From the IMG/VR virus record IMGVR_UViG_3300050821_011222, positions 1 to 28,384 of that record: a stretch of DNA of 28,384 nucleotides; one strand, 5' to 3'. A program made the translations under genes and the position numbers. The stretch comes from a virus. A model generated the notes under the pieces. That model worked only from the letters and a program-made list of their open reading frames with translations. It was not told the DNA's origin and ran no database searches. Shown here one piece after another: positions 782 to 19,800 of this stretch (the stretch's first letter is position 1; the number at the start of each line of letters is the position of its first letter).

Positions 782-879
782 CATCCCGCCGGGAAGACCG
801 TCGCGACGATGCCGGCGGTGACGAAGACCGTCAGCGCGAGCAGTACGGCGAACCATCCCAGCAGGGGTGCGGTATCCAT
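778..879 (-). CDS. 33-residue single-pass membrane protein
   Basis: ATG at 879 overlaps the MuF stop as TGATG. The product is 33 residues and almost entirely one hydrophobic helix (residues 5-30, LLGWFAVLLALTVFVTAG core), ending AGW. The couplings at both ends (TGATG upstream, GTGA downstream) are the main argument that it is translated. Tiny single-pass proteins of this kind recur through the window. Function unknown. Confidence 0.55.
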   Translation of the reverse strand: MDTAPLLGWFAVLLALTVFVTAGIVATVFPAGW

Positions 880-1679
880 CAGCTGAACCCCTTCACGATC
901 GGCTTCGAGACGCACCGGCAGTTGATGAGCTGCCCCGGCCATATCCTCGCCCTTACCTTGGGATCCGGATCGAACCAGCCTTCGGCGATGTTGTACCGCT
1001 TCCCGTCGTTCGCCAAGTGGGTCGGCCGCGGCTCTTTCCCAGCGTGCGAGTGCAGCCACAGCGCCTCGTCGATCCCGAGCTCGGTCTGCCGCGCCCGCTG
1101 CATCGCCGACGTCGCCATCTGGTTTTGCGTGAACGCGATCAGCGCGGCCCGCCGCTCCGTGACGCCGTACCGCGCCTGCAGCTCCTTCGACAGCGCGCCG
1201 AGGTCCCGCCCGGTCTGGACCGAGCGCATGACGAGGTCCTGGACCTGCGCGTGGTACTGCTCCGGGATGCTCTTGATCATGGCCACGTTGCCGGCGACGG
1301 TCGCGTCGAGGATGTCGCGCATCGCCCTGGTCATCTGGAAGTCGACCGTGACGCCAGCGTCCTTCAGGATCTTGCGCAGCGCGGCGTCGGAGCGCTTCCA
1401 CGCCGCTTTCGCGAACCATGCCGCCAGCGCCGGGGCGGCAGCATCGAAGTTCTTCCGCCACTGGACGCCGAGGCGTCGCAGCTCGCGCTCCAGCTCCTTC
1501 GCCGGCGATTCGTCCTGCGCCATGATCGGAGGAGTCCGGCGATACTGCGCCTTGAGGAATCGGTCATAGGAGGCCTGCATGTCCTTGATCAGCGCCCGCA
1601 GCTTCTTGCGGTAGATCGCCGCGATGCCGGCGTTAGGGAAAACCGCCCGCAGCACGCGCTCGCCCTTGCGCCGCCGCAT
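879..1679 (-). CDS. MuF-like head morphogenesis protein (SPP1 gp7/Mu gpF family)
   Basis: 266 residues. The C-terminal third holds the MuF signature: W208-LHSHAGKEPRPTH, then DGKRY, GWFDPDP and RIWPGQLINCRC (cysteines 254 and 256), ending KPIVKGF. The N-terminal two thirds are helical. In SPP1 and Mu relatives this minor head protein binds the portal and is packaged in the capsid. The ATG at 1679 follows the upstream stop by two bases. Unlike many phage MuF proteins, it has no extra toxin domain at its C-terminus. The portal gene, its usual neighbour, is about 12 kb upstream on the same strand. Confidence 0.9.
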   Translation of the reverse strand: MRRRKGERVLRAVFPNAGIAAIYRKKLRALIKDMQASYDRFLKAQYRRTPPIMAQDESPAKELERELRRLGVQWRKNFDAAAPALAAWFAKAAWKRSDAALRKILKDAGVTVDFQMTRAMRDILDATVAGNVAMIKSIPEQYHAQVQDLVMRSVQTGRDLGALSKELQARYGVTERRAALIAFTQNQMATSAMQRARQTELGIDEALWLHSHAGKEPRPTHLANDGKRYNIAEGWFDPDPKVRARIWPGQLINCRCVSKPIVKGFS

Positions 1680-13661: not shown

Positions 13662-13870
13662 GTCGCCTCCTCGGCGGAGCGCAGGCGCGCCTCGCATTGC
13701 CGGACCCGCGTCAGGCCGGCGCCGAGGGCCAGGATCGCGTTCTGCAGCTCGCGGTCGGCGCCTTGCAGCCTCTCGATGACCTCGGCGAGGTTCTGCCGGG
13801 CCGCCTGAAGCTCGGTCGTCGCCTCGTGGATCAAAACCCTGGGGGAGGGTGGCATCCCTGTCTCCGTCAC
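13658..13870 (-). CDS. Small coiled-coil protein downstream of the portal gene (70 aa)
   Basis: GTG 13870 overlaps the portal stop as GTGA; an ATG five codons on is the alternative. Residues 12-65 form one uninterrupted helix with heptads (EATTELQAARQNLAEVIERL, then ADRELQNAILALG, RVRQCEARLRSAEEA). By position it may be a small virion or assembly protein. Confidence 0.65.
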   Translation of the reverse strand: MTETGMPPSPRVLIHEATTELQAARQNLAEVIERLQGADRELQNAILALGAGLTRVRQCEARLRSAEEAT

Positions 13871-16800
13871 TTGCCCTCCATGCCCCAGTTGCCGTCGCCG
13901 TCGGTTTGGTAAGCCTTCTCGTAGATCGTCCGCGCCATCTCCTGGAGCTCGTCGAACGACTTGCCGGCCAGGCTGCCGGTGCGGATCGAGTCGTAGAGCT
14001 TGTGGCCCTGCTCCTCCTTGGCCTGCGTCATCGCCTTGCTGTTGAACTGCAGCTCAGCGACCAGCCCGCCGGGGGTGCGGAAGTTTACCAGGATGTCGCG
14101 ATAGCCGCTCGGCGATGAGCCGACATGGCGGTCCTTGACGCGCAGTACGTTGTCGCCCTGCTTGGCGATGAAGGCGGCCGCGGCGTCGCGCGTCTTCTCC
14201 ACCGAGTCCCCGACTACGGTGCCGCGCAGCACGTCGCGGAGCTTGGTGAAGTCGCCGCCGAGCTCGTCCTTGAGCTTCCGCTCCGACGATTCGCGCGTCT
14301 TCAGGATCGAGCCGCCGACCTCGGGGCCGAACTTCGGCTTCGATCCCGTAGCCTCCGCGATGTGCTCGACCATCGCGCGGAACGCCGGCTCCTCGGCCCG
14401 CGCCCGATCGTACAGCTCGTCGAGCGACTTGACGGGCTGCGTCGATTCCCCGAACTCGCGCACCATGTTCTTGCGGATGTCGGGCTTCGTCTTCATCGGC
14501 TCGCCCTTCTCGGCGTAGTCGGACAGCTTGCCGATCAGGAAGATGTCGCCGCCGAGGCGGTAGCCGTTGAAGCCCATGCGGTCGGCGATCTCGACCGCGT
14601 TGTTCTGGATGAACAGCTGCGGGGCTTCCTCGTCGAACTCCTCCTTGGTGACGCTCTTCGGCGACTTGCCGAGCCAGGCGCCGACGAGCCGCTTCGCCGC
14701 GTCGCTGTCGAAGTCGCCGAGGTCGACGAGGTTCGGCTGCTTCTTGACCTTGTACTTCTTCGGCTGGCCCCACTGCGCCGCGATCTCAGGGAAGGCGGAA
14801 ACATAGACGCCCTTGCCCTCGGCCATCCCGGACTGCTCCTCATTCTCGGGACCGGCCCCGCGGTAGACGGTATCCGGCATCCTCGGCCCCGAGTCGGCAT
14901 GCGGGATCGTTCCCGGCTTCGCCCAACTTTTCGCCGGCTGACCGACCGTGAGGAGCGGTTCTTCCTCGTCAGTCTTTTTTTTTGAAGCGCCGCCCGGCGC
15001 CGACGCGAACTCGCCGCCCTTCGTCGTGAACTCGCCGCTCTTGTCGCGGGGGTGCTTCGATTCCTCCCACAGCTCGTCGAGCGCTAGCGCGGCGTCGTGG
15101 GCCTGCTCCTCGCCGGTCTCCTCGACCGCGAGCAGCAAGAGGATCAGCGCGTCGAGCACCGAGTCGTCGCGTTCCTCGTCGCCGACCTGACCGGCCTTCT
15201 CCAGCTCGGAGATGCGCGCGGCGACCTCCTTCACCCCGCCGAGGACGTCGACGGCGTTGCGCAGCACCCCGCCGAGCACCTCCTTGGCGCCGCCGAGCGA
15301 GAAGTGGAACTGGTCCATCAGGTGGTTGACGGCGTAGGCCGCGACCGCAGTAGCGCCGAGCGTAACCCCGGTCATCCCGCCGAGCCCGATCGCGGTGACG
15401 GCATGCTCGACGATCTGGTGCACGGCCGGCAGCAGAATGGCGTCGGTGACGTGGAACTTCGCCATCCCGGCGGCGTGCTTGGCCGCGAAGTCCTTGACCG
15501 CCTTCGCGCTCGCCGCGCGGCCGCCGTCGGACGAGAAGAACGAGCGTACCTTGTCGACGTGGCCGGCGTGCTCCTTGCGCTCCTCCGACGTCGCCTTCTC
15601 CAGCGCCTCGGCGGTCGCCTTCTCCATCACCTTCGTCGCGTCGGGGCGTTTGACCTCCGGCGCCGGGGCGCGCCGCTGTACCATCGCGCTGCCGCGCGCC
15701 GCCGGCCGCGCCGGGCCGCCCGGCCTCCCCGCCGACGTCCGCTTCGGCGCCTGCTGCCCGCCGCCGCCGGAACCGAACTGCCCCTTGTTCTCCGGCTGGC
15801 CGCGGGGATGTTTGGATTCCTCCCAGCCGGCGTCGCCGATGAGCGCAGCCTTCGCCTTGTCGGCGGCGTCGGGGTCGACCTCCGCGAAGCGCTCCGGTCC
15901 GAACTCCAGCGGGCCAGCATAGGGCTCGACCTTCGACAGATCAACGTCGCCGGGATCGTAGGTGATCGTAACGTGCGGCTTGTAACCGGGCCAATCCCAT
16001 GATGCGCCGACTTCGCGGATGTCCTCCCATCGCCGCGTCAGGCGCGCCGATTCGAATCGCAGGACGACCGCCCCTTTGTCGCCGAGCAGCTCGACCAATC
16101 TCCCGCCATTGCCCGGCACGACGACCTTGGCCTCGCCGGTCCCGATGTCGGCCCACTCGACCGGCTCCTTGCTGAAGGCGACGGTGACGTGGATGTCCTC
16201 GGGCGGCAGCGTCTTCTTGATGCCGTTCGCATGCACCCACTTGATGAGGTCGCCGGCGTTGAGCAGCGGGCGGTTGACGTAGAGAGTACGCGGTCCCGGC
16301 GCCTCGTCGCCGACGATCTCCTTCGCCAGCTTCAGGTCGCGCTCGCGGTTGAGGAAGCCTTTCAGCTTCTGCGGCGGCGCCAGTACGACGCCCTCGCTCT
16401 CCGGGCCCGGCTTCGACGGGTCGCCGGCCTCGCGGTCCGCGAGGTAGTAGCGGGTCAGCGTAGCGTCGCCTTCCCGGTCGCCGGCGAGCCCGGTGATCCT
16501 GCCCTTCAGCCCGGTTTCCTCGAACGCCTCCTTGATGGCGTTGGCCTGCAGCGACAGGCTCGGCTCGACGCGGCCCTTCGGGAAAGTGCTGGAGTACCCG
16601 CCGAAGGCGTTCTTCGGCTGCACCAGCCATACCCGGCCGTCCTTCTCGCGGATGATCAGCCCGGAGGCCAGCTGCTTGCCCTTGGCGCTGTCCGGCAGCG
16701 GCGCCTCGTCTTCGATGTCGGTCTGGCCATCGACCTCGTTCCAGTCGCCGTCCGCCGGCGGCTTCCACTCCTTGAACGCGATCCCGTTCAGCTCCTTGAC

Positions 16801-19800
16801 CGGCAGCGCGTCGCCGGCGGGGAAGATCACGGTCGAGGTCTTCTTCTTGGGGTCGCCCTCGGCGCCGAACGTCTTGGCCCGCTTCGCGATGTCATTTTTG
16901 CGCGCGATCATCTTGTCGGCGAGCGCGTCGGAACCACCACGCGCCTTGATCACCTCGCGGATCTCGTCGTCGGGGATTGAGGTGACCTTGGCCGCCGACT
17001 CGCGGAACTCGGCCGGGGTGATGTCGCCGAAGATCTCGGAGGCGTCCGGCGCGATCTTCGGGTCGCGCATGGTGTCGATCTCGGTGACCTTGTCGCCGAA
17101 CGTCTCGCCCTTCGGGGCTCCCCGCGCCCGGTACTCCAGCGCGCCGCCGAGGTCGACGGAGAAGACGTCGTGGCCCGCTGCGACCAGGTTGTCGCCCCCG
17201 GTGCCGACCGCGTCGTAGTTCGACGTCCAGGCGTGGGCGAGGAAGTCGCGCTTCGCGCGGCGTACCTCGTCGTCGGACATCTCCGAGGCGTTCGTCTTGT
17301 CGAGCTTCTCCATCTCGGAGGCGACGTGCTCCCCGCCGGCGACGTCGCGGTAGCGCAGCGTCGGCGCCCCGGCGAGTTCGTAGAGGTCGGCTGCGGTCAT
17401 CTCGTTGCGGACGTGGTCCTTGGAGCGGCCCTGCTTGACGTAGAACTTCCGCCCCTTCTCGTCCTCGAACACGCCGCCGGGGTTGGAACCCATCTGCGGG
17501 CCGACCTTCTTCAGCTTCGAGGGGTCGAGCGGCGGTGGGGGAGCGCGATGGTACGCCTCGCCGCCCCCGGGCGGCAAGTGCAGGCCGAGCTGCGGCATCT
17601 GGAAGTGCTGCGCCGGACCGCCGTGCCAGCCGTAGCCCTTGGCCTTCGGCGCCGACGATCCTCCGCCGGTCGAGGCGAACTCGCCGGCGTTGCCGGGCTG
17701 GCCCCTCGGATGCTCGCTCTCCTCCCAGGCGTCGGCGGCCAGGCCCGCGAACAGCGGGTCAAGGTCGGCGACGTCCCCGCTGAAAGGGAGCACCGTGGCG
17801 TTCCGCCGCCGCGCCTCCCCCTCGTCGTGCGCCGTGACGGGGCGCGTGGAGACCGTGCCGATCGGCGCGCAGAGGAAGCGGTCGTTCTCGGCGTCGAGGA
17901 TGGCCACCCGCTCGTTGTCGGCGTCGTTGACGAAGCCGACGGCGCGCCCGGTGCCGGAGGCGTAGCGGACGCGGCTGCCGATCCGAAGCCCTTTCCTCGC
18001 GGCCTCGCCGCGCGCCGTCGGCGCGATCTGGTTGCCCGAGGCGTCGGTGGCCGGGATGTCGAAGCCGCGCATCCACTCGTAGCGGTCCGCCCAGGGCAGG
18101 CCGCGCGGCGGCGCCGGCTCGTCGAGCGCTTCATCCTCCTGGAACGCGGGGTCGTGCGCCTCTCCGCCCCCGCCGCCAGCACCGGCAGCCGGCTGCGGCG
18201 CCTGTCCACCGTGCTGCTGCTGGCCGGGCTCGCCGATGACCGCCTCGAGGCCCTTGCCGGCGCCCTCCGGCACCAAGCCCTGCATCTCCTCCTGCTTGAG
18301 TTCCGGCACGTCGTCGGGGTCGAGGTCGCTGTACGGCATCGCGGGGTCGTCGATGACGTTCTTGCGGACCTCCTCCGGCGCCAGCGCCCCCATATCGACG
18401 TAGATCTGGTCGCGCTCGCCCTGCGCCTTCTGGAGGTCGGCCTTCTCCTTCTCGCTCATCTCCCACAGCGGCTCGAACTCGAACGTGATCTCGGGATCAA
18501 CTTCACCCCACAGCGAGAGCTGGATGAAGTTGATCACCTTCGTCAGGTTCGGCCGCTCGAAGCGGTTCTGGTAGCCGGCGATCGTGTCGTAATAGGCGCG
18601 TACCTCGCTCTCGGCCGAGGCGTTGAGCCCCGCAGGCTGTAGCCCCGTAAACTTGATGAGCGGGATGCGTGCGGCCGACGCGACATGCTCCTGGGACTGC
18701 GCCTCGAGTTCGTGCAGTCCGCCGAGCGGGGCACTCACGTTCTTAAAGTCTTCGGTATTTTTGTTGAAAATAAACAGCCCCATGTTGTCGCGGAAGGCGT
18801 TGAAGGCGTCGGCGCGCGCCAACAGCGCGCCGGGCCCGCCGCTGGCGCCGGGCGCCAGGATGGTCTGCACGTCGGTGGCGAGGCACATCACCGAGAAGGC
18901 GTGGATCAGCTCGCCGACGCTGTCGCGCGTCCGCAGCCAGATGTCGACGTAGGGCAGCACCAGCTGCGACAGCGACAGCCCGCCGAAGCTGTACGCCGGC
19001 TTCAGCAGGTCCGGCACCGGATGGCCGACGAACGGCAGCAGCCGCGAGACGTGGATCTGGCGTCCCATCACGTACCAGTTCTGCGGGGCGTACCAGTCGT
19101 CGGCGAGCGGGTTGATCGCGTTGTAGGCCATCGGGAAGGTCCACACCGGCTCGATCGGCTTCACCGCGCGCAGCGGGTTGTCCTTGCCGACCTTGCCGCG
19201 GCTCATCTCGTCGCGGCCGTCGCCGATGTCCTTCTTCAGCTCCTCGTCGCTGTCGTCGCCGTCCTTCTTGCCGAACTTCAGCGCGAGGTGGGTACGGCCG
19301 AACAGGCCGTCGTCGCGGCAGATGCAGTACATATGGTCGCGCAGCGCCAGGCGGGCGATCTCGTCCTTGAGCGCCTTCACCTTCTCCATCTTGCCGGCGG
19401 CCTTGACCTTGTCGGCACGCTTCTCCGGGTCCTCGTCGGTAAAGCCGCGGCCGCGCAGCGCCGGCTCGCCCTGCTGCTCTTCCCCCTCCGGCTTCCAAGG
19501 CTCCGGCGAGAGGTCCTGGCCCGGCACCTTCGGCGCGGTGCCGCCGCCCTGACGCTCCGCCGAGACGCGGTCGCGCTCGGCATCGTCCTTCTCCTCGCGC
19601 TCCTTCTCGCCGGTGACCTCGAAGTCGATCCACTTCCGGGTGGCATCGTCGGCGATCGTCTCCGAGATGACGCGGTACTCGGTACGCTGCGCCAGCTCGG
19701 AGAGGAACGGGTAGCCGAGGAACTGCAGCCCCTGCGACGCCACGGAGTTGAACAGCGGTCCCAGCGCGGCCCACTGGCCGTCGGCCCAGGCCGTGGCCTG

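Follow-up and report, generated by a model that had tools for sequence, protein, structure and literature searches.

An Acb1-family phosphoesterase domain embedded in a phage portal polyprotein

A portal polyprotein of 2079 amino acids, encoded in a viral sequence of 28,384 nucleotides (IMG/VR record IMGVR_UViG_3300050821_011222; the whole stretch is hereafter called the window), contains a real and well supported domain of the Acb1 family. Its identity, predicted fold, catalytic residues, insertion as a cassette and fusion to a head protein are directly supported by the data presented here, and the domain probably serves as a virion-linked anti-CBASS enzyme. Portal-2H fusions and the idea that they act on immune nucleotides are already known, and a relative is found in the portal of cyanophage Pam3. 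What this analysis adds is the assignment to Acb1, the comparison of the insertion site and the richer architecture, with kinase-like, Nudix, Acb1 and Tas1-like RelA/SpoT modules. The polyprotein represents a more complete instance of an arrangement that had been predicted before.

The open frame of the polyprotein exhibits a GC content of 0.69/0.46/0.93 at the three codon positions, similar to the other coding frames of the window. Its modules are arranged in the order portal core, linker, kinase-like module, Nudix, Acb1, linker, helical module, linker and RelA/SpoT-like C-terminus (Table 1). Two features of polyvalent proteins are present, i.e., several conflict-type domains in one chain (kinase-like, Nudix, Acb1 and RelA/SpoT-like) and a link to a head or packaging protein, here the portal core in the same chain. 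The HPR..G.F motif of the linkers occurs three times in the polyprotein in comparison to 0.008 copies expected from shuffled sequences, and it sits at module joints in relatives too. A longer pattern, D..[WF].E..HPR...G.F..GGG, recurs at the module joints and is also found in many related phage polyproteins. The HPR-type linker may serve as a flexible spacer or mark a position at which the chain is processed. An initial annotation, made from the letters of the sequence, had described the Acb1-type domain as embedded between a Nudix domain and a WEES linker, in a layout unlike that of simple portal-Acb1 proteins. Both statements hold, as PF00293 matches upstream at residues 1145-1248, HPR follows downstream at residue 1433, and most relatives carry Acb1 at the extreme C-terminus of a portal of ~600 residues. 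A MuF-type minor head protein is also encoded in the window (879-1679, minus strand; PF04233, 50 bits).

Table 1 Features of the portal polyprotein and their positions in the window.
Feature	Position	Strand	Basis
Portal polyprotein, 2079 aa	13867..20106	-	Open frame, coding-type GC by codon position
DUF1073-type portal core, aa 236-613	18268..19401	-	PF06381 Phage_portal_3 221 bits; phrog_146 portal 318 bits
Linker 1, aa 791-818, WEESEHPRGQPGNAGEFASTGGG, WEESEHPR	17653..17736	-	HPR..G.F motif
Kinase-like module, aa 860-1076	16879..17529	-	Predicted model and conserved residues
Nudix domain, aa 1145-1248	16363..16674	-	PF00293 46.8 bits, cut-off 21
Acb1-family 2H phosphoesterase domain, aa 1273-1416	15859..16290	-	PF23474 134 bits; fold match to 7t26/7t27
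First HxT motif, H1306-V-T1308	16183..16191	-	Aligned to T4 H44/T46
Second HxT motif, H1378-V-T1380	15967..15975	-	Aligned to T4 H113/T115
Linker 2, aa 1425-1452, WEESKHPRGQPENKGQFGSGGGG, WEESKHPR, glycine-type, HPR at 1433	15751..15834	-	Same linker in L110
Helical/hydrophobic module, function not assigned, aa 1481-1640	15187..15666	-	Common to L042 and L110
Linker 3, aa 1677-1704, WEESKHPRDKSGEFTTKGG, WEESKHPR	14995..15078	-	HPR..G.F motif
RelA/SpoT-like domain, aa 1901-2079	13870..14406	-	phmmer to Tas1 and SaSAS

A Pfam profile search assigned residues 1273-1416 to PF23474 (Acb1) with 134.2 bits (E 4.8e-41; curated cut-off 27 bits), and the same search gave no PF23474 match in 14 named control genomes. 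The name 'RNA ligase', as carried by PHROG family phrog_755, was rejected because the Acb1 profile scores far higher than the other 2H profiles (LigT 27 bits, 2_5_RNA_ligase2 19 bits); the LigT/RNA-ligase family is thereby ruled out as the best name for the domain. Searching the PDB with phmmer returned only two significant matches, the Pam3 portal (8hds, E 6e-19) and FBB1 Acb1 (7t26, E 2e-9), so that the match to Acb1 is far beyond chance. A fortuitous pair of HxT motifs is likewise ruled out by the profile and fold scores. The proposal of an Acb1-type domain inside the portal polypeptide is thus borne out by profile and by best fold match, which is again FBB1 Acb1. Of the span first proposed, 1273-1412, the start was correct, while the domain extends further, to about residue 1416.

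To obtain a fold, residues 1115-1425 were modelled with AlphaFold using 51 aligned sequences. The pLDDT values were mostly above 85 across the Acb1 part and low across Nudix, because few aligned rows cover the latter, and therefore only the Acb1 part of this model was used. Foldseek ranked FBB1 Acb1 as the top match (TM 0.83 by target length). VIA-align placed 7t27 (Acb1 with 3'3'-cGAMP) first with a Z-score of 16.8 and 1.9 Å over 135 residues, followed by 7t26 (Z 16.2), the Burkholderia phage phosphodiesterase 9q2y (Z 14.6) and LigT (Z 10.8). The check suggested with the initial annotation was whether superposition would reveal HxT motifs that do not oppose one another as a 2H fold requires; the predicted model superposes as a 2H fold, and the pairing of the motifs, read from the sequence alignment, puts both on the catalytic tetrad. 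The Pam3 portal 8hds was absent from the best 50 fold matches listed, though its sequence holds an Acb1-type domain; possibly this domain is not built in the 8hds map.

The active site was compared in T4 Acb1 numbering (PMC9117128) over an alignment of 90 relatives including the window. Both HxT motifs had been called intact at 1306 and 1378, and residues 1306-1308 and 1378-1380 indeed read HVT, with H1306/T1308 and H1378/T1380 aligned on the T4 tetrad. Similar to T4 and FBB1 Acb1 (PF23474; 7t26, 7t27), the domain combines the 2H fold and the HxT/HxT tetrad with Tyr12 and an aromatic residue at column 107, the two being base-stacking positions; Y12, H44, T46, H113 and T115 are kept, and Trp stands at the F107 column. 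Y12, H44, T46 and H113 are invariant (90/90) and the T115 column holds T in 85 and S in 5 sequences, although only Y12 and the second HxT pair are free of bias, as most relatives were found by a pattern containing the first HVT. At the F107 column, 77 of the 90 carry an aromatic residue (Trp, Phe or Tyr). By sequence, catalysis looks intact and cleavage of cyclic nucleotides is likely.

The base pocket differs from that of T4 and FBB1 Acb1, whose base-stacking W74 and lid W147, which a match to the Pfam model does not require, are not kept in the window. At the W74 column the window carries Glu, the residue of 72 of the 90 sequences, with Asp in another 12, and Trp is absent throughout the virion-linked group; column 71 is Arg in all 90. 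The W147 column is Ala in the window and Trp in 70 relatives. For E141, which contacts adenine N6, the register is uncertain by one column: the window shows Ala with Glu one column on, and among the relatives E occupies 53 of 90 positions at this column and 79 of 90 at the next. Since W74 and W147 are not kept, the CBASS substrate is a prediction, and bases may be recognized in another way than by the T4 enzyme. From the changed pocket one would predict that the virion-linked group may act on a range of nucleotides different from that of T4 Acb1.

Comparison with three other loci locates the insertion. In IMG/VR contig 3300037452_000118 (L042, 128.8 kb), a polyprotein of 2407 residues carries portal, linker, kinase-like module, Nudix, Acb1, linker, helical module and linker in identical order, but ends in other C-terminal modules, ART-like where the window has RelA/SpoT-like. 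In L110 (2558 residues), portal, kinase-like module and Nudix are followed by a WEESKH.RGQP.N.GQFG linker without Acb1 between, and in L111 Nudix is directly joined to the linker, also without Acb1. As Acb1 is present in the window and L042 and missing at the same joint in L110 and L111, it is a removable unit there, a mobile cassette at the Nudix/WEESKHPR joint. Between the window and L042, amino acid identity amounts to 85% for the kinase-like module, 83% for Nudix, 77% for the portal and 65% for Acb1. The corresponding NG86 dN/dS values, from one sequence pair with strongly GC-biased codon use, are 0.23, 0.24, 0.37 and 0.44, so that Acb1 is under constraint, though weaker than Nudix or the kinase-like module.

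A tblastn search with the Acb1 domain matched 992 phage records, every one below 60% identity, of which 85 cover at least 80% of the domain; relatives are present on no fewer than 582 viral contigs, and bacterial loci with relatives belong chiefly to Alphaproteobacteria and Gammaproteobacteria. Among 116 labelled proteins, 92 are DUF1073 portals, 9 PF04860-type portals and 2 Mu-type portals, next to 3 DUF2213 proteins, 2 S78 prohead proteases, 4 further large proteins and 4 stand-alone forms. As this sample was ordered by resemblance to the window and contains near-duplicates, the proportions are not unbiased. A quick tree requires at least 14 changes of partner, versus a mean of 23.7 after shuffling. 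This suggests repeated capture of Acb1 by head proteins but does not prove it, because most deep branches are weakly supported. The 'prohead protease' gene of Roseobacter phage DSS3P8 (L004:4989-5441) is a stand-alone Acb1-type gene of 150 residues whose label looks wrong, and it therefore gives no evidence for a protease fusion.

The neighbouring modules were characterized as well. A Pfam search of residues 860-1076 gave no match; the model of this kinase-like module (mean pLDDT 90) found CtkA as best Foldseek match, together with other kinase-fold enzymes, and the residues Lys, Glu, N-Y/W-D, DN and D-x-GG are conserved. Some 300 viral relatives of the module were found. For the RelA/SpoT-like domain, phmmer against the PDB gave Tas1 (6ox6, E 2e-11) as best match and SaSAS (8vx3) at E 0.004. 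Tas1 is a secreted effector that makes (p)ppApp. The portal chain thus bears an alarmone-synthetase-like module, and a pattern search of viral contigs for relatives of this C-terminal region returned none.

Several known systems come close to this arrangement. T4 Acb1 is a stand-alone protein of 152 residues with 25% identity to the window copy, which is embedded in the polyprotein. The Pam3 portal (8hds) likewise has a DUF1073-family core followed by an Acb1-family domain (PF23474, 105 bits), but comprises 621 residues with Acb1 at the C-terminus and without other effector modules, and its second motif is HxS. In passages of their 2017 paper, Iyer et al. described fusions of 2H domains with MuF or portal domains and suggested that the 2H domains could degrade nucleotides of counter-invader systems (PMC5512222), and a passage of their 2022 paper restates both the fusion and the proposed degradation of immune nucleotides (PMC9503650). 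The polyvalent proteins in these passages resemble the window in having 2H on portal or MuF and Nudix, kinase and RelA/SpoT domains as parts. The domain is named there as a member of the 2H superfamily rather than as Acb1, as the 2017 paper predates Acb1 and the 2022 text does not use the word; the module order of the window, the HPR linkers and the comparison with empty sites are likewise not in the descriptions given in these passages. Among mainly open-access papers, searches listed none with a title or abstract that reports testing a portal-fused Acb1.

Portals are dodecamers, and the C-terminal end of known portals faces the capsid interior. In the proposed mechanism, the effector modules would be strung after the portal core, joined by flexible HPR-type linkers, with Acb1 as one intact module among them. 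Once a cyclic di- or trinucleotide alarm had bound to the two His-x-Thr pairs, the ribose 2'-OH would attack the 3'-5' bond and the ring would open without metal, and CBASS effectors would consequently stay off. Owing to the fusion with a head protein, Acb1 would be available wherever the portal protein is, i.e., in the particle, in up to 12 copies that are possibly ejected or released with the DNA, and also, in late infection, at the sites of assembly. We infer that the domain is enzymatically active, that it acts on CBASS nucleotides and that it is delivered, and we likewise infer any processing that the polyprotein undergoes. Portal rings normally remain in the spent particle, and ejecting a portal-borne domain would need cleavage or passage through the channel.

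Several lines of evidence favor a virion-linked anti-CBASS enzyme. Acb1 comes first by profile and fold, well above other 2H families, the second HxT pair is kept (H in 90/90, T or S in 90/90), and the domain is under constraint in the comparison with L042. Presence and absence of the cassette at one joint is clean, relatives are fused to DUF1073, PF04860 and Mu portals, S78 protease and DUF2213, and the neighbouring modules are conflict-type enzymes. T4 Acb1 and nine homologues cleave 3'3'-cGAMP and cAAA, though it is not stated whether a portal-fused type was among them (PMC9117128). Against this stands the pocket, which by the aligned residues is not T4-like throughout (W74 to Glu/Asp, W147 to Ala). 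Another reading is that the same enzyme acts late, co-expressed and co-located with the late structural proteins that can trigger CBASS and working from new portal subunits in the cytoplasm, with no need of injection. Such late action is a variant of the virion-linked reading, the probabilities of the two overlap, and we consider it a serious contender that falls somewhat short of an even chance. Late timing is suggested because a phage prohead protease interacts with a CBASS sensor and induces growth arrest (review PMC12409349), and because T4 Acb1 activity is seen from about 15 min of infection, in step with late CBASS onset (PMC9117128); relatives also reside on prohead protease and DUF2213, both assembly proteins. 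However, kinase-like and RelA/SpoT-like modules are of the kinds that passages of PMC5512222 propose for polyvalent proteins injected at entry, and the P1 Dar proteins are co-ejected head proteins (PMC12810830), both of which fit arrival with the DNA. The present data fit both timings and do not separate them.

Alternatively, the domain might be a 2H phosphodiesterase with a different nucleotide substrate. This could be a 2',3'-cyclic phosphate at an RNA end, a cyclic phosphate of ADP-ribose, a 2'-5' oligonucleotide or some other cyclic nucleotide of immunity, and the domain might act in sequence with the neighbouring Nudix domain. The group-wide change at columns 71 and 74 and the directly adjoining Nudix domain point in this direction, as do the RNase or 2'-5' oligoadenylate roles proposed for portal-fused 2H domains in passages of Iyer et al. 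We nevertheless regard this as unlikely, with profile and fold favoring Acb1 widely over LigT, CPDase, Usb1 and viral 2'-5' phosphodiesterases, Y12 invariant and column 107 mostly aromatic. Very improbable is a non-catalytic structural leftover of Acb1, serving merely as head filler or DNA binder. Loss of the lid tryptophan and the faster evolution of Acb1 relative to the Nudix and kinase-like modules would agree with decay, but at an identity of 63-65% with the nearest relative every catalytic residue remains, as does the stacking tyrosine, dN/dS stays under 1, and the absence of the cassette from L110 implies that the portal itself does not need Acb1.

Acb1 has been known as an enzyme produced by T4 in the course of infection. 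If the virion-linked anti-CBASS reading is true, such an enzyme would arrive with the particle or assemble on it, and widespread portal-fused Acb1 would mean that many phages carry or attach an anti-CBASS enzyme to the virion, shifting the timing of the CBASS block. Only tentatively, and as rather doubtful, do we extend this to Acb1 as a plug-in repeatedly captured by unrelated head proteins, with the portal as a preloaded device that also holds kinase-like, Nudix and alarmone-synthetase-like modules. The collinear portals with Acb1 (window, L042) and without it (L110) represent natural test pairs. In L110, the DUF1073 portal is interrupted at residues 661-870 by a match to the Pfam intein splicing domain, which at 27.6 bits scores below the cut-off of 35.8.
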